This document shows, one piece after another, positions 141 through 11,770 of a stretch of 64,000 nucleotides of DNA. Every line of letters starts with the position of its first letter. Within the stretch, counting starts at the first letter, position 1. The position numbers and the translations under genes are program-made. The notes beneath the pieces were generated by a model, which saw nothing but the letters and a program-made list of their open reading frames with translations, was not told the DNA's origin and made no database searches. Source of the DNA: Streptomyces sp. NBC_00464 (GTDB lineage: Bacteria > Actinomycetota > Actinomycetes > Streptomycetales > Streptomycetaceae); assembly GCF_036013915.1 (NCBI RefSeq), contig NZ_CP107899.1, positions 5,146,001-5,210,000 on the forward strand, in the 5' to 3' direction.

Positions 141-180
141 ATGGTTCATCCGTTCAGCGAGGCAAGAATGGATGAAACAT
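141..180. promoter_or_regulatory. Inverted repeat between divergent PucR and ureohydrolase genes (candidate PucR operator)
   Basis: ATGGTTCATCC (141-151) and GGATGAAACAT (170-180) form 11-bp arms with one mismatch around an 18-nt spacer. The repeat begins 3 bp upstream of the regulator's start codon and lies in the shared divergent promoter region, the usual place for an autoregulated operator. Assignment to PucR is inference from position. Confidence 0.45.
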
Positions 181-323
181 ACACTTCAGGGTTGCCGTCG
201 GGCCGCCTAGCGTCATCAGCGGACCCGTACGCCTGTTTCCGTGCCGTGGTGAGGGTTCCGGCACACTCGAACCAGCGCGTCATCGATGGAACCGAAGGCA
301 CCGAAGGAAAGGTCACCCACCCC

Positions 324-1334
324 ATGAGCAGCAACGAGACGCCGCGCGGCCCCGTCGACTCCTCCCGCGTCCCGCGGTACGCCGGACCCGCGACGTTCGC
401 CCGGCTGCCCCGCCTCGACGAGGTCGGGACGGCGGACGTCGCCGTCGTCGGTGTGCCCTTCGACTCGGGTGTCTCCTACCGGCCCGGCGCCCGCTTCGGC
501 GGCAACGCGATCCGGGAGGCCTCGCGGCTGCTCCGCCCGTACAACCCGGCACAGGACGCCTCGCCGTTCGCCCTCGCTCAGGTCGCCGACGCCGGGGACA
601 TCGCGGCGAACCCGTTCAACATCAACGAGGCCGTCGAGACGATCGAGGCCGCGGCCGACGACCTCCTCGGAACCGGTGCCCGTCTGATGACGCTCGGCGG
701 CGACCACACCATCGCGCTGCCGCTGCTGCGCTCCGTCGCCAAGAAGCACGGCCCCGTCGCGCTGCTCCACTTCGACGCGCACCTCGACACGTGGGACACC
801 TACTTCGGCGCCGAGTACACCCACGGCACCCCGTTCCGCCGGGCCGTCGAGGAAGGCATCCTCGACACGTCCGCGCTCTCCCACGTCGGCACCCGCGGCC
901 CGCTGTACGGCAAGCAGGACCTCACCGACGACGCCAAGATGGGCTTCGGCATCGTCACCTCCGCCGACGTGATGCGGCGCGGCGTCGACGAGATCGCCGA
1001 CCAGCTGCGTCAGCGCATCGGGGACCGGCCGCTGTACATCTCCATCGACATCGACGTGCTGGACCCGGCACACGCCCCCGGCACCGGCACCCCCGAGGCC
1101 GGCGGCCTCACCTCCCGCGAGCTGCTGGAGATCGTGCGCGGGCTGTCCTCCTGCAACCTGGTCTCCGCCGACCTGGTCGAGGTGGCCCCCGCGTACGATC
1201 ACGCCGAGATCACCTCCGTTGCCGCCTCGCACACCGCGTACGAACTGACGACGATCATGACCCGCCAGATCGCGGAGGCCCGGAACCCGGCCACGGAGGC
1301 CCAGGAACAGATCGCGGAGGCCCGCCAGCAGTGA
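324..1334 (+). CDS. Ureohydrolase of the agmatinase/guanidinobutyrase family
   Basis: A 336-residue enzyme of the arginase/agmatinase superfamily, which hydrolyses a guanidino group to urea and an amine in the cytoplasm. The binuclear Mn/Ni site is complete: GGDHT (H128), DAHLDTWD (D151, H153, D155) and SIDIDVLD (D242, D244). The ATG at 324 is chosen because GGAAAGG lies about 12 nt upstream and the family alignment starts just after it; the frame is open further upstream but without coding character. The stop overlaps the GTG of the next gene, so the pair is translationally coupled. Because the partner is a TPP-dependent decarboxylase-like enzyme, 4-guanidinobutyrate (arginine transaminase pathway) is a better guess for the substrate than agmatine. 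The exact substrate cannot be read from sequence. Confidence 0.88.
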
Positions 1335-3016
1335 GTCACGACCACCACGACGAGCGGCCCGAGCTCACCCCCGGGCAGATCGCCGCCGCCCTGAACCCCC
1401 CGCCCGGACGCAACGGCGGGGACCTCGTCGTCGAGACCCTCCAGGGCCTCGGCGCGACCACCGTCTTCGGCCTGCCCGGACAGCACGCGCTGGGCATGTT
1501 CGACGCGCTGCGCCGCTCGTCCCTCGGCTACGTCGGCCTGCGCGTCGAGAACAACGCGGGCTTCGCCGCCGACGCCTACGGGCGCATCACCGGCGAGGTC
1601 GCCCCGCTCCTCCTGTCCACCGGACCCGGCGCGCTCACCTCGCTCGCCGCCCTCCAGGAGGCGGCGGCCGCCTCCGCTCCCGTACTGGCGATCTCCAGCC
1701 AGATCCCGACCGCGGGCCTGGGCGGCGGCCGGCACGGCTATCTGCACGAGCTGCGCGACCAGAAGGCGTCGTTCCGCGACATCGTGAAGTCGGTCCACAC
1801 CGTCCGTACCGCCTCGCAGATCCCGTCCGCGATCGCCGCCGCCTGGGAGTCCGCGCTCACGGCCCCGCACGGCCCGGTCTGGATCGAGATCCCCGAGGAC
1901 GTGCTCACCGCCGAAACGACGCTGCCCGTCGTCACGGCGATGGACGCCACCCCGCGCGAGGTGCACGCCCGCCCCGAGCTCATCGCGGTCGCGGCGCACC
2001 TGCTGTCGAACGCGGAGCGCCCGGCGATCGTCGCGGGCGGCGGAGTCGTACGCTCCGACGCGTCCGGCAAGCTGCGCGCCCTCGCGGAGAAGGTCGGCGC
2101 CCCGGTCGTCACCACCTACGGCGGCAAGGGTGCCTTCCCGTGGGAGCACCCGCTCTCGCTCCGGTCCTGGATCGAGGACCGGCACACGACGGACTTCCTG
2201 GAGGACGCCGACGTCCTGCTCGTCGTCGGCTCCGGACTCGGTGAGCTCTCCTCGAACTACTACACGTTCGCCCCGCGCGGCCGCATCGTGCAGATCGAGG
2301 CCGACGCCGGGAAGCTGGAGGCCAACCACCCCGCCCTCGGCATCCACGCCGACGCCCGCGACGCGCTGTCCGACCTCCTCGAAGCGGTCACCCCGCGCGA
2401 GGACCCGGCCGCCGCCGAGCGCGTCACGGCGGTGCTCGGGCGGGTACGGGACCGGATCGCCGCCCAGGAACGCACCCTGGAACAGCACCTCATCGCCGGA
2501 ATCCGGACCGCCCTGCCGGACACGTCCCCGAGCTTCTGGGACATGACGATCCTCGCCTACTGGGCCTGGGCCGCCTTCGACGCCCGCCACCCCAACACCA
2601 TGCACTCGGCCCAGGGCTCGGGCGGCCTCGGCTACGCCTTCCCGGCGGCCATCGGTGCGGCCGCCGCCGACCGCACGAAGCCCGTCCTCGCGGTCTCCGG
2701 CGACGGCGGCGCGATGTACTCGATCGCGGAACTCGCCACCGCCCGCCAGTACGACCTCCCGGTCACCTGGCTGATCGTCGACGACGGCGGCTACGGCATC
2801 CTGCGTGAGTACATGACCGACGCGTTCGGAGAGACCAGCGCGACGGAACTGTCCCGCCCGGACTTCGTCGCCCTCGCCGAGTCCTTCGGCGTCCCCGCGG
2901 TCCGTACGAGCCCCGAGACGCTCACCGACGACCTGGCCAAGGCCCTCGCACAGCCCGGCCCCTCGGTCGTCGTGCTCCCGGCGCTGCTGCGGATGTTCGA
3001 GCCGACGCACCTGTAG
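1331..3016 (+). CDS. TPP-dependent enzyme, acetolactate-synthase fold (candidate 2-ketoarginine decarboxylase)
   Basis: A 561-residue enzyme with the three-domain architecture of the pyruvate oxidase/acetolactate synthase family: N-terminal pyrimidine-binding domain with the activating Glu in [15 protein letters not shown], a central domain, and a C-terminal diphosphate-binding domain with [12 protein letters not shown] followed about 20 residues later by DDGGYG. The start is GTG in a GTGA overlap with the upstream stop. The enzyme is probably not a biosynthetic acetolactate synthase: no regulatory subunit gene or ilv gene is nearby. Known pathway: in Pseudomonas, AruI of this family decarboxylates 2-ketoarginine and a ureohydrolase later acts on 4-guanidinobutyrate. 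The operon pairing here fits that logic, but the substrate is inferred only. Confidence 0.8.
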
Positions 3017-3062: not shown

Positions 3063-3422
3063 TCACCGCGGGGCGGTATCGAGCGCCTGAACCTGCGCGT
3101 GCCACCCGTCGCAGAACTCCTCCTGCTGCGCCGACGTCAGTGACCCGGGCAACTCCCTGGTGCGGGGCAGCAGGTCGGGTATGGACCGGAAGATGGCCAC
3201 CGACGCCTCCCCCCTGCGCTGGTTCTGCGCGCGCATGAGGTACGTCACCACCCGGTCCAGATGGTCCTTCAGCGCGCCCCGGGGGTTCTTCGACGCGGTG
3301 GCCCGGGCACCGGGCCGGTCCAGCGTGGCCTTCGCGTTCGGCGCACTGAGCCGCTCCAGCGCGGCCAACGCCGCGTACAACTGCCCACAACGATAGGCAT
3401 CCGTGGGCTGAGCGTCCGACAT
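3063..3422 (-). CDS. Orphan Cas8c/Csd1 C-terminal-like protein (Cas11c-like)
   Basis: A 119-residue protein whose ATG at 3422 follows a good GGGAGG site. The N-terminal AYRCGQLYAALAALERL resembles the AYxxGRLxAVLExxQ helix that opens the C-terminal domain of type I-C Cas8c (Csd1). The C-terminal LPGSLTSAQQEEFCDGWHAQ resembles the FPxxLxxEEQGxFxLGYYHQ ending of that family. In type I-C systems this segment is also made separately from an internal start as the small subunit Cas11c (about 120 residues), which is the length seen here. No cas gene, repeat array or other defence gene is nearby; the gene converges on the TPP enzyme. Function unknown: it may be a domesticated Cas11-like protein or a distant fold relative. 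The similarity was judged by eye, from memory of the family. Confidence 0.6.
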   Translation of the reverse strand: MSDAQPTDAYRCGQLYAALAALERLSAPNAKATLDRPGARATASKNPRGALKDHLDRVVTYLMRAQNQRRGEASVAIFRSIPDLLPRTRELPGSLTSAQQEEFCDGWHAQVQALDTAPR

Positions 3423-3908
3423 GGTCCCTCCCCGATTCCACCGGCGGAGGTCATCCCTACCCGTCCCGGGCCGCCGGGGAACGCCGGACACCCGGCGCGT
3501 ACGACCTTCCGTCAGTCCGCGGGGCAACCCAGTGGGCACGCCCCCCGAACCTCAGGGGCCGGAAGCCACACACATGAAGACACCTCCGGAGGAGACACAC
3601 TCCGGCTGCGGGTGAAGCTCCTCCCACCGGTCCGGTCCCCGCTCCTCCGCTTTAACGCAGGGGACACCTTCCGTAGCTCTCCCGTAACACCTGGGCGCAA
3701 GACTCTCGGTATCGCGCAGCTCCCGGGATCGACAGGCTCATCCGCCCGCCGGGGCTGCAAGCTCACGACGCGTCCGGCAGCAAGGCCGGCGCGTGCGTGC
3801 CCGGTCCGCCCTGTGCGGGCCGGTGGAAGCGCCGGGGGCGGTGACCGCGCTTCGTTCCCCCGCGTACCGGCTCGACGGCCGCGTACGCCGCGAAGAGGGA
3901 GAACCACG
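3423..3908. other. Intergenic stretch without a recognisable gene
   Basis: 486 nt between the Cas11c-like gene and the purine operon, to whose promoter it must contribute. I see no convincing coding frame, tRNA or known riboswitch. Two loose GTNAC-type half-sites (TTAAC at 3652-3656 with GACAC six bases later, and GTAAC at 3684-3688) recall the nitrogen regulator GlnR's box but are too degenerate to call. Confidence 0.4.
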
Positions 3909-7917: not shown

Positions 7918-8029
7918 ATCCGCACGAAAGGACCTACGCCCAAGGTCCCGTATTTGTTGCAGCGGGATGAAATCCGCAGCCCACCGCGTTGGTGCCTTCC
8001 GGCAGGGCAGGTCGATCGGGAGGCACCGG

Positions 8030-11000
8030 GTGTCGGACGCAGGGGAGCAAGGAAGCGGCGGGCAGCCCCGTGGCTGGGCGCGGAGGCTGAGCGGTTACGC
8101 CTGGCGCTACCGGCGCAACGTGCTGCTGGCGCTCGGTTCGTCGCTCGCCGGAATGGCCGTGATGGCCCTCGTCCCGCTGGTCACCAAGGTGATCATCGAC
8201 GACGTGGTCGTCGGCCACACCCGCTCCCTGGCCGTCTGGACGGGACTGCTGATCGTCGCGGCCGCGCTTGTGTACGTCTCCACCTACATCCGCCGCTACT
8301 ACGGCGGCCGGCTCGCCCTCGACGTCCAGCACGACCTGCGGACCGAGATGTACGGGACGATCACCCGCCTCGACGGCCGGCGCCAGGACGAGCTCTCCAC
8401 CGGCCAGGTCGTCGGCCGCGCCACCAGCGACCTCCAGCTGATCCAGAGCCTGCTGTTCATGCTCCCGATGACCATCGGGAACGTCCTGCTCTTCCTCATC
8501 TCCCTGGTGATCATGGCGTGGCTCTCGCCGCTGCTCACCCTCGTCGCCATCGCCGTCGCCCCCGCCCTCTGGTTCATCGCCCGCCGCTCCCGCACCCGCC
8601 TCTTCCCCGCCACCTGGTACGCCCAGTCGCAGGCCGCGGCCGTCGCCGGAGTCGTCGACGGAGCCGTCTCCGGCGTCCGTGTCGTCAAGGGCTTCGGGCA
8701 GGAGGACCAGGAGACCGGCAAGCTGCGCGAGGTCGGGCGCCGGCTCTTCGCCGGCCGGCTGCGCACCGTACGGCTGAACTCCCGCTACACCCCCGCCCTC
8801 CAGGCCGTCCCCGCCCTCGGCCAGGTCGCGATGCTGGCCCTCGGCGGCTGGCTCGCCACCCGCGGCGAGATCACCCTCGGCACCTTCGTGGCGTTCTCCA
8901 CCTACCTCGCCCAGCTCGTCGGCCCGGTCCGGATGCTCGCCATGGTCCTCACCGTCGGCCAGCAGGCCCGCGCCGGTGTGGAGCGCGTACTGGAACTGAT
9001 CGACACCGAGCCGTCCCTCCAGGACGGCACCAAGGAGCTCCCGGCCGACATCCCGGTCGGCGTCGAGTTCGAGGACGTACGGTTCGGCTACGACAAGGAC
9101 CGCCCCGTCCTCGACGGCTTCTCGCTGACCATCGAACCCGGCGAGACCGTCGCCGTCGTCGGCGCGTCCGGCAGCGGCAAGTCCACCGTCTCGCTGCTGC
9201 TGCCCCGGTTCTACGACGTGACGCACGGCGCCGTCCTCGTCGGCGGACACGACGTCCGCGAACTGACCCTCGACTCGCTGCGGGCCGCCATCGGACTCGT
9301 ACCGGAGGACAGCTTCCTGTTCTCCGACACCATCCGCGCCAACATCGCCTACGGCCTCCCCGGCGCCACCGACGAACAGATCGAGCAGGCAGCCCGCGCC
9401 GCCCAGGCCGACCGGTTCATCGCCGAGCTGCCCGACGGCTACGACACCACGGTCGGCGAGCACGGGCTCACCCTCTCCGGCGGCCAGCGCCAGCGCGTCG
9501 CGCTCGCCCGCGCCATCCTCACCGACCCCAGGCTGCTCCTCCTCGACGACGCCACCTCCGCCGTCGACGCCCGCGTCGAGCACGAGATCCACGAGGCGCT
9601 GCGCCAGGTCATGGCAGGCCGCACGACCCTGCTGATCGCTCACCGCCGCTCCACCCTGAACCTCGCCGACCGGATCGCCGTCCTGGAGAACGGCCGGCTC
9701 GCCGACATCGGCACCCACGAGGAGCTGGAGCGCCGCTCCGCGCTCTACCGGCGCCTGCTCACCGACCCGGACGAGCTGGGCGCCACCTCGCCCGGCCACC
9801 AGCTGACCAAGGCCGCCCCGGACCCCGCCGACGACCGTGCGCTCCAGGAGGAGATCGACGCCGAGTTCGACGCCGAGCGCGGCATCACCCCCGAGCTGTG
9901 GGTCCGCAAGGAGGGGGCACGCGAGACCGACGCGGCCGGCACCCCCGCCACCCCCGAGCTCCTCGCCCAGGTCGAGGCCCTGCCCCCGGCGACCGACACC
10001 CCGGACATCGACGAGGCCCGCGCCGTGCATGCCGAGGAGTCCTACGGGCTCCGCAGGCTGCTGCGCGGCTTCGGGCTGCCGCTGCTGGTCAGCCTGGCGC
10101 TGGTGGCCGTGGATGCCGGAGCGGGCCTGCTCCTGCCGGTACTGATCAGGAACGGCATCGACGAGGGCGTCACCCAGCTCGCGCTCGGCGCGGTCTGGAC
10201 CGCCTCCGCCTTCGGCCTCGTCGTCGTACTCGTGCAGTGGGCGGCCCAGGTCGGCGAGACCCGGATGACGGGCCGCACCGGCGAGCGGGTGCTCTACTCC
10301 CTGCGGCTGAAGATCTTCGCGCAGCTCCAGCGCCTCGGCCTGGACTACTACGAGCGCGAGCTGACCGGCCGGATCATGACCCGGATGACGACCGACGTGG
10401 ACGCCCTGTCCACGTTCCTCCAGACCGGCCTGGTCACGGCCTTCGTCTCCGTCGTCACCTTCTTCGGCATCATGGTCGCGCTGCTGGTCCTCGACGTGGA
10501 GCTGGCCCTGGTCGTGTTCGCGACGCTGCCGCTGCTCGTCGTCGGTACGTTCTTCTTCCGCCGCAAGAGCGTCAAGGCGTACGAGCTGGCCCGTGAGCGC
10601 ATCGGCGTCGTCAACGCCGACCTCCAGGAGTCCGTCTCCGGCCTCCGGATCGTGCAGGCCTTCCGCCGCGAGCGGGACGGCGCCGAGCGGTTCGCCGCGC
10701 GCAGCGACCACTACCGCGAGGCCCGGGTCCGCGGCCAGTGGCTGATCTCGGTGTACTTCCCGTTCGTCCAGCTGCTGTCGGCGGTGGCCGCCGCCGCCGT
10801 GCTGATCGTCGGCGCGGGCCGGGTCGACAACGGCACGCTCACCACGGGTGCGCTGGTCGCCTACCTGCTCTACATCGACCTGTTCTTCGCGCCGGTGCAG
10901 CAGCTCTCGCAGGTCTTCGACGGCTACCAGCAGGCCACCGTCTCCCTCGGCCGTATCCAGGAACTCCTCCAGGAACCGGCCTCCACCGCCGACCGCGACG

Positions 11001-11770
11001 AACCGCTGGACGTGAAGTCGCTGCGCGGCGAGATCGCGTTCGAGGACGTGTCCTTCGCGTACAGCGGCGAGGAGGCCGCGCTCACCGGCATCGACCTGCA
11101 CATCCCGGCCGGTCAGACGGTCGCGTTCGTCGGCGAGACCGGCGCGGGCAAGTCCACCCTCGTCAAGCTCGTCGCCCGCTTCTACGATCCGACGGGCGGC
11201 CGGGTCACCGCGGACGGCACCGACCTGCGCGCGCTGAACATGACCGCGTACCGGCACCGGCTCGGGGTCGTACCGCAGGAGGCGTACCTCTTCGCCGGCA
11301 CGGTCCGTGACGCCATCGCGTACGGGCGGCCGGAGGCCACCGACGCCGAGGTGGAGGCGGCGGCCCGGGCGGTCGGCGCGCACGACATGATCGCCACCCT
11401 GGAGGACGGCTACCTCCACACGGTCGCCGAACGGGGCCGCAACCTCTCGGCCGGCCAGCGCCAGCTGATCGCGCTCGCCCGCGCCGAGCTCGTCGACCCG
11501 GACATCCTGCTGCTCGACGAGGCCACCGCGTCCCTGGACCTCGCCAGCGAGGCCCTGGTCAACCAGGCGACCGACCGCATCGCGGGCCGGCGCACCACCC
11601 TCGTCGTCGCCCACCGTCTCACCACCGCCGCCCGCGCCGACCGGGTCGTGGTGATGGACCACGGCCGGGTCGTCGAGGACGGCACCCACGACGAACTCCT
11701 CGCCCTGGACGGGCGCTACGCGGTGCTGTGGCGCACCTTCATAGGGGAGGACGAGCCCGCGGGGGTGTGA
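8030..11770 (+). CDS. Single-chain ABC exporter with two TMD-NBD halves
   Basis: A 1246-residue fusion of two half-exporters (TMD-NBD-TMD-NBD). Each TMD has six predicted helices of the ABC_membrane type. NBD1 has Walker [10 protein letters not shown] (about residue 377), signature LSGGQ and Walker B ending LLLLDDAT. NBD2 has GETGAGKST (about 1034), signature LSAGQ and LLLDEAT. The catalytic Glu is thus Asp in NBD1, and the composite site it forms with NBD2 also has the LSAGQ signature. This asymmetry is typical of heterodimeric exporters such as BmrCD or TM287/288, which are normally two polypeptides. GTG 8030 has GGGAGG six bases upstream; ATG 7967 upstream lacks one. A charged linker (about 590-680) joins the halves. 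The substrate, a drug or lipid, is unknown. Confidence 0.9.
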   Translation: MSDAGEQGSGGQPRGWARRLSGYAWRYRRNVLLALGSSLAGMAVMALVPLVTKVIIDDVVVGHTRSLAVWTGLLIVAAALVYVSTYIRRYYGGRLALDVQHDLRTEMYGTITRLDGRRQDELSTGQVVGRATSDLQLIQSLLFMLPMTIGNVLLFLISLVIMAWLSPLLTLVAIAVAPALWFIARRSRTRLFPATWYAQSQAAAVAGVVDGAVSGVRVVKGFGQEDQETGKLREVGRRLFAGRLRTVRLNSRYTPALQAVPALGQVAMLALGGWLATRGEITLGTFVAFSTYLAQLVGPVRMLAMVLTVGQQARAGVERVLELIDTEPSLQDGTKELPADIPVGVEFEDVRFGYDKDRPVLDGFSLTIEPGETVAVVGASGSGKSTVSLLLPRFYDVTHGAVLVGGHDVRELTLDSLRAAIGLVPEDSFLFSDTIRANIAYGLPGATDEQIEQAARAAQADRFIAELPDGYDTTVGEHGLTLSGGQRQRVALARAILTDPRLLLLDDATSAVDARVEHEIHEALRQVMAGRTTLLIAHRRSTLNLADRIAVLENGRLADIGTHEELERRSALYRRLLTDPDELGATSPGHQLTKAAPDPADDRALQEEIDAEFDAERGITPELWVRKEGARETDAAGTPATPELLAQVEALPPATDTPDIDEARAVHAEESYGLRRLLRGFGLPLLVSLALVAVDAGAGLLLPVLIRNGIDEGVTQLALGAVWTASAFGLVVVLVQWAAQVGETRMTGRTGERVLYSLRLKIFAQLQRLGLDYYERELTGRIMTRMTTDVDALSTFLQTGLVTAFVSVVTFFGIMVALLVLDVELALVVFATLPLLVVGTFFFRRKSVKAYELARERIGVVNADLQESVSGLRIVQAFRRERDGAERFAARSDHYREARVRGQWLISVYFPFVQLLSAVAAAAVLIVGAGRVDNGTLTTGALVAYLLYIDLFFAPVQQLSQVFDGYQQATVSLGRIQELLQEPASTADRDEPLDVKSLRGEIAFEDVSFAYSGEEAALTGIDLHIPAGQTVAFVGETGAGKSTLVKLVARFYDPTGGRVTADGTDLRALNMTAYRHRLGVVPQEAYLFAGTVRDAIAYGRPEATDAEVEAAARAVGAHDMIATLEDGYLHTVAERGRNLSAGQRQLIALARAELVDPDILLLDEATASLDLASEALVNQATDRIAGRRTTLVVAHRLTTAARADRVVVMDHGRVVEDGTHDELLALDGRYAVLWRTFIGEDEPAGV

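Follow-up and report, generated by a model that had tools for sequence, protein, structure and literature searches.

A stand-alone relative of Cas11c at one chromosomal site in Streptomyces

Introduction

Can the small subunit of a CRISPR (clustered regularly interspaced short palindromic repeats) effector complex persist as a gene of its own, away from any cas operon? In type I-C Cascade that subunit is Cas11c, otherwise produced through internal translation of cas8c. The question is raised by a short gene in a 64,000-nucleotide stretch of Streptomyces sp. NBC_00464 (contig NZ_CP107899.1, positions 5,146,001 to 5,210,000; hereafter the window), the product of which an initial annotation likened to Cas11c. 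We report here that this gene, called the solo gene below, belongs to a new syntenic family found in 59 of 392 Streptomyces genomes and is probably a domesticated, stand-alone relative of Cas11c.

Homology to Cas8c and Cas11c

The 119-codon open reading frame (ORF) proposed initially was recovered on the minus strand, with its ATG at 3422 and its stop at 3063-3065. Its G+C content by codon position (0.69/0.54/0.90) is typical of Streptomyces coding sequence. The initial annotation also gave the gene its own ribosome-binding site, and the GGGGAGGGACC leader ahead of the ATG is a plausible one; similar words precede 43 of 53 family members, in a count made without a shuffled control. Scans around the gene for Rfam families, promoters and terminators, together with a tRNA scan, returned nothing of use.

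Profile PF09709 matched the protein with 30.5 bits (cut-off 27, E = 2e-7) over positions 450-558 of 559. The predicted match to the C-terminal domain of Cas8c/Csd1 therefore stands, but not its limitation to the two ends of the domain, which is covered as a whole. TIGR01863 also matched (22.4 bits, E = 3.8e-5), far below its full-length cut-off of 218.65, as did four PADLOC Cas8c models. As a single sequence, the protein reached the Cas11c chains 9jhb_B and 7kha_K of the PDB at E = 0.0015, and a profile built from 46 family members reached them at E = 2.7e-8 and 2.8e-8, respectively. Predicted models of the solo protein have the Cas11c helical-bundle fold, with a gap in Z from 12.8 to 4.0 in the structure comparison, while the model of a divergent family member gave a weaker match. 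The fold matches included solved I-C Cascades with anti-CRISPR proteins (8dfo, 8dfs); no Cse2 chain was among the fold matches listed, which carries no weight either way. Profile search and structure comparison, the two checks suggested at the outset, thus both returned a match: the solo protein is homologous to Cas11c across the whole domain and is predicted to form the same bundle.

A chance helical bundle that merely resembles Cas11c is scarcely credible. Middling structural scores are common for such bundles, just 17 of the 46 members singly match PF09709 at E ≤0.1, and the solo profile gives a match to 5cwb, a designed helical protein, as well (E = 0.0032). Against this, the sequence profiles agree in both directions and the Z gap is wide, and a chance match was rejected on this profile and structure evidence.

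Boundaries and conserved residues

The columns of 110 solo proteins were compared with those of 15 Cas8c/Cas11c stretches, six of which are near-copies (numbering of the window protein). Apart from one or two exceptions in certain columns, the 15 stretches keep N-T-T-x-x-D-K/R-Y, Q23, Q100 and R111, none of which is conserved in the solo family. As judged from this alignment, most residues conserved in Cas8c C-termini have been lost from the family, including the invariant or near-invariant N-T-T-x-x-D-K/R-Y, Q23 and R111. The family keeps G13, A17, P47, F103, G106 and mostly Q110, and it has conserved stretches of its own, A-R-x-R-G and V-F-R-x-I-P-D-L-L-P; the FRxIPDLLP-like signature is absent from the Cas8c sequences compared. 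In 10 of 14 Cas8c genes, the first motif glycine follows a candidate internal start by 15 residues, and in the other four by 12, 16, 17 and 19 residues. The solo gene starts 12 residues before this glycine and therefore has the bounds of a Cas11c unit, not its conserved residues. Net charge ranges from +1 to +8 in the 15 Cas8c/Cas11c stretches and from -4 to +11 in the 110 solo proteins (mean +2.1; window protein +3).

At least 335 short Cas11c-like proteins are found in databases; 9 of the 120 listed lie on contigs longer than 10 kb, and the rest are perhaps gene ends at contig edges. Four proteins of Cas11c size (P0174, P0150, P0173, P0095), found on contigs between 14.8 and 438 kb long, keep the canonical motif and begin near the internal start position; they may be separate cas11c genes or the ends of broken cas8c genes. 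One member of the solo family (P0057, S. rochei group) is labelled by one source as an EcoEI R protein C-terminal domain, for which Pfam gives no match.

Distribution and chromosomal site

The solo profile matched 75 of 392 Streptomyces genomes at E 0.01. By our reading of the individual rows, 59 of these hold the solo gene, counting the partial or broken copies of G085, G194 and G223; the search scored 11 candidates per genome after its first pass, and the figure is perhaps low. Among the other 16, eight have full-length Cas8c only and eight have weak matches that were not counted (G058, G083, G087, G107, G226, G268, G276, G370). Across 147 genomes of the order, matches were confined to one of five genera, and a survey of 197 genomes from the class gave just two matches outside Streptomyces, frames of 607 and 799 residues, both Cas8c. 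Database relatives of the solo protein have about its length, and the close ones with a named organism come from Streptomyces; carriers include Streptomyces griseus NCTC13033, S. globisporus and S. anulatus. The window protein had no match among 50,697 phage and 72,556 plasmid records, and, given also its fixed site, a recent mobile gene was rejected.

Three solo genes (L047, L095 and G416:C251:78-476) appear frameshifted or degenerate, which fits ongoing loss or errors in draft sequence. The match at L100 (G289) was taken as false, as it lies elsewhere and within a long frame of unrelated sequence. Alignments and selection counts leave out L095, L047, L053, L069 and L100; alignment A2 holds 46 of 51 distinct locus proteins, and alignment A3 holds 62 of 76 database proteins plus the window protein, fragments and some near-copies being left out.

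In the window, an agmatinase-family gene, a thiamine pyrophosphate (TPP)-dependent enzyme gene, the solo gene, and genes for a 2-oxoglutarate oxygenase, an amidohydrolase, a permease and an ATP-binding cassette (ABC) transporter follow one another (Table 1). With L100 dropped, 49 of 55 carrier loci gave a long match to the TPP enzyme, convergent with the solo gene in every one, at a distance of ≤168 bp in 36 loci and 0.8-6.4 kb in 13. Within the stretch examined, the TPP match was partial in two of the remaining loci and missing from four. In 14 further carrier loci, among them G118 and G401 with their unusual-looking chromosome coordinates, the ABC transporter lay on the other side in all 14 and the TPP enzyme was found in 13. 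In the loci read, the solo gene therefore has a single chromosomal site.

The TPP enzyme is also present in 27 of 30 genomes in which no solo gene was counted. No trace of the solo gene was seen in the 1.5 kb behind the TPP enzyme at 28 non-carrier loci (best E 1.9 and 4.1). In six non-carrier loci of 12 kb, the ABC, TPP and agmatinase genes are all kept and no significant match lies between them (best E 0.59); in one of the six only 101 bp separates the flanking matches. These loci bear on whether the solo gene is a regulator of its neighbours, the ABC transporter or the catabolic genes. Its start is divergent to the ABC transporter gene (to the 2-oxoglutarate oxygenase gene in the window) and its place is kept in the loci read, which would suit such a regulator. 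Yet the gene just upstream varies among carriers, by rough gene calls, and the six non-carrier loci retain the supposed targets without it, which makes this role improbable.

Table 1. Coordinates of the solo gene and its syntenic anchors in the window
Feature	Position	Strand	Remarks
Solo Cas11c gene	3063..3422	minus	119 aa; whole Cas11c/Cas8c C-terminal domain; profile and structure matches
Putative ribosome-binding site	3423..3433	minus	Purine-rich; GGGGAGGGACC before ATG; sequence read
Family signature, codons 78-87	3162..3191	minus	F-R-S-I-P-D-L-L-P-R in the window protein; column comparison
TPP-dependent enzyme, syntenic anchor	1331..3016	plus	PF02775, PF00205, PF02776; convergent with solo gene; start GTG 1331 inferred, searches run with 1334-3013
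Arginase/agmatinase-family enzyme, syntenic anchor	141..1334	plus	PF00491; ORF as listed, true start perhaps later
Fused double ABC transporter, far-side syntenic anchor	7967..11770	plus	PF00664 and PF00005, two stretches each

Relation to CRISPR-Cas systems

The solo gene is the sole Csd1 match in its genome. Two places in the genome gave Cas1 and Cas7e matches: contig C2 and C1:2.55 Mb, the latter about 2.6 Mb from the window (C1:5.146-5.210 Mb). The lack of cas neighbours noted initially holds as tested, that is, for Csd1, Cas1 and Cas7e searched genome-wide, other cas families not having been searched in this genome. The gene does not lie within cas8c in a type I-C operon, and its neighbours are not cas genes. 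A piece of a broken I-C locus was rejected, since Csd1 has no second match in the genome and the genes on either side are ordinary. The two loci with Cas1 and Cas7e, G000:C2:70000-89500 (L115; the second contig, 245 kb) and G000:C1:2545500-2565000 (L116), are type I-E-like and each carry repeat arrays with 61-base spacing; their operon members beyond Cas1 and Cas7e were read by eye.

Among 40 carriers and 40 non-carriers, all picked by hand, Cas1 was found in 7 and 13 genomes, and Cas7e in 13 and 16, respectively. Neither was found in 26 carriers and 23 non-carriers, systems lacking both genes not having been searched, and the solo gene thus occurs in genomes without detected CRISPR-Cas. A Cas8c-type C-terminus was present in 13 genomes from both genome sets, three of which also hold the solo gene (G075, G475, G482). 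Among the 392 genomes, one of the nine with full-length Cas8c has the solo gene, as against 59 of 392 overall, numbers that can neither establish a link nor exclude a weak one. The solo carrier G482 has at C28:19367-19693 a Cas11c-type match of 34 bits in a 484-residue frame, possibly a shortened Cas8c.

A role in trans for the resident CRISPR-Cas (I-E here, I-C in a few genomes), as its small subunit or its regulator, is favoured by the two I-E-like loci of this genome and by the three genomes with both a Cas8c-type C-terminus and the solo gene. It is nonetheless quite unlikely: most panel carriers lack both Cas1 and Cas7e, about as often as non-carriers do, the gene is no commoner with full-length Cas8c than overall, and the Cas8c-conserved residues are lost. 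The CRISPR genes tested show no association with the solo gene. Since it stands alone at a fixed site, also in strains without detected CRISPR genes, its product probably now serves a different job than in the CRISPR complex.

Inheritance and selection

A tree of the TPP enzyme from 49 carriers and 27 non-carriers, built by a quick method and with many weak forks, has carriers scattered through it and requires at least 16 changes of the solo gene by parsimony, of which its well-supported branches force just 4. Pairwise identities of the solo protein and the TPP enzyme were correlated (r 0.72, 44 rows; reached in 0 of 2000 permutations). Descent of the solo gene thus follows its neighbour, with many absences. 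Median pairwise identity is 34% for the solo protein and 86% for the TPP enzyme, and the former therefore evolves much faster. In 22 close pairs, the pooled ratio of nonsynonymous to synonymous differences per site (pN/pS) was 0.39 for the solo gene and 0.12 for the TPP enzyme, whereas the solo DNA read out of frame gave 1.44 and 1.43. Hence, the gene is under purifying selection in close pairs and, judged on the TPP-enzyme tree, is inherited vertically. Neither outcome that would have undone the initial annotation, a failed comparison with Cas8c and Cas11c or absence from close relatives with no selection on the frame, was seen; its synteny survey found the gene in many relatives.

A joint tree placed 41 of the 110 solo proteins (<60% identical) on one side of a branch and the 15 Cas8c/Cas11c stretches on the other (Shimodaira-Hasegawa-like approximate likelihood ratio test, SH-aLRT, 100), with no indication of which Cas8c lineage served as source.

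These data bear on two further explanations. A decaying, no longer functional leftover of a vanished type I-C locus could account for the many absences, the degenerate-looking copies (L047, L095, G416) and the faster evolution than the neighbour. It would be expected to evolve neutrally, unlike the in-frame ratio of 0.39, and carriers across the TPP tree keep one site and the family has conserved residues of its own, so that decay is very unlikely. Fast evolution and patchy retention are also seen in arms-race genes and would suit a defence or counter-defence factor, such as an anti-CRISPR decoy or a sensor of phage nucleic acid; the anti-CRISPR-bound I-C Cascades 8dfo and 8dfs appear here as fold matches only. 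The fixed place amid ordinary metabolic and transporter genes (window and loci read), descent that tracks the TPP enzyme, and the lack of a match to the window protein in phage or plasmid records argue against such a factor, which we consider unlikely, if somewhat less so than the other alternatives.

Discussion

The initial annotation left a choice among a domesticated remnant, a regulator and a new use of the fold. Its observation of a Cas11c-like solo gene is confirmed and its interpretation supported: domestication with a new use fits best, while plain decay is contradicted. Several points weigh against the domestication of a Cas11c unit as we read it. The window protein retains Q100 and NAKATLD, a vestige of the Cas11c motif. 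Net charge, as computed from sequence, is on average only mildly positive. The many absences (at least 16 changes, 4 forced) speak against an important function. Most of the 22 pairs behind the pN/pS value belong to a single clade, and they are not independent; the median ratio was 0.91 over all 1226 pairs with synonymous divergence (dS) of 0.05-1.2, in which distant pairs are saturated. The single branch of the joint tree was perhaps aided by long branches, and six of its 15 Cas8c/Cas11c sequences are near-copies. Finally, a median identity of 34% leaves the number and place of origins open.

For the domesticated Cas11c relative, a possible history is a single capture of the Cas11c unit as a separate gene, early in Streptomyces, followed by escape from Cascade. 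Its product would keep the bundle of the small subunit and self-associate into a scaffold that contacts single-stranded nucleic acid or a partner protein through a new conserved face, composed of the ARxRG loop and the end of the FRxIPDLLP helix, in a dispensable and CRISPR-independent role. We propose this scaffold and its face only tentatively, with less confidence than the domestication itself. Equally tentative is the notion that a Cascade small subunit was converted once, early in Streptomyces, into an independent cellular protein that assembles with itself on single-stranded nucleic acid or R-loops, or scaffolds a partner, outside any CRISPR system. Articles are cited here by PMC number, the available parts being meant throughout. 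Cas11c is described as a helical bundle that corresponds to residues 489-612 of Cas8c, and the non-target strand is proposed to be held along a positively charged path on it (PMC7684278). The type IV-B Cas11 is occluded from bound RNA (PMC7937560).

If true, a vertically kept, CRISPR-independent Cascade small subunit would be a clean case of the re-use of a Cascade part in a well-studied genus, and the family would be a natural record of which residues the fold needs and which are for Cascade alone. A PF09709 match in Streptomyces need not signal a type I-C system.

Comparison with known systems

Solo forms of Cas4 and Cas1 are known (PMC5704561). No report of a stand-alone Cas11c, or of any Cascade small subunit maintained alone, was found in the literature searched, which did not take in subscription papers and preprints; the parts available of PMC12669027, PMC8730458 and PMC5294841 mention none, and that of PMC11417383 holds nothing on Cas11 residues. 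As far as these searches reach, the family could be the first lineage in which a Cascade small subunit has been domesticated, although we hold this with some reserve.

The solo protein resembles Cas11c and the Cas8c (Csd1) C-terminus of I-C Cascade (7kha, 8dex, 9jhb, 8g9s) in whole-domain homology, predicted bundle, and nearly equal start point and length. It differs in being encoded by a separate gene at a non-cas site with no I-C partners found, and in having lost N-T-T-x-x-D-K/R-Y, Q23 and R111 while carrying its own FRxIPDLLP-like signature. Cse2 (Cas11e) of type I-E is a small-subunit helical bundle in the broad sense (PMC7684278), as the solo protein is predicted to be. The type IV-B Csf complex also bears a Cas11 and assembles without CRISPR RNA, its Cas11 sitting on the Cas7-like Csf2 in a distinct helix arrangement (PMC7937560), whereas the solo gene has no known Cas7-like partner gene nearby. 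The closest precedent is solo-Cas4, likewise a cas gene outside CRISPR loci that is inherited mainly vertically with no sign, in the part of the source available, of a functional tie to its CRISPR-borne form (PMC5704561). Solo-Cas4 is a nuclease of many archaea and bacteria that evolves near the genomic median (PMC5704561), whereas the solo gene encodes a small subunit, is found here in Streptomyces only and evolves faster than its neighbour.
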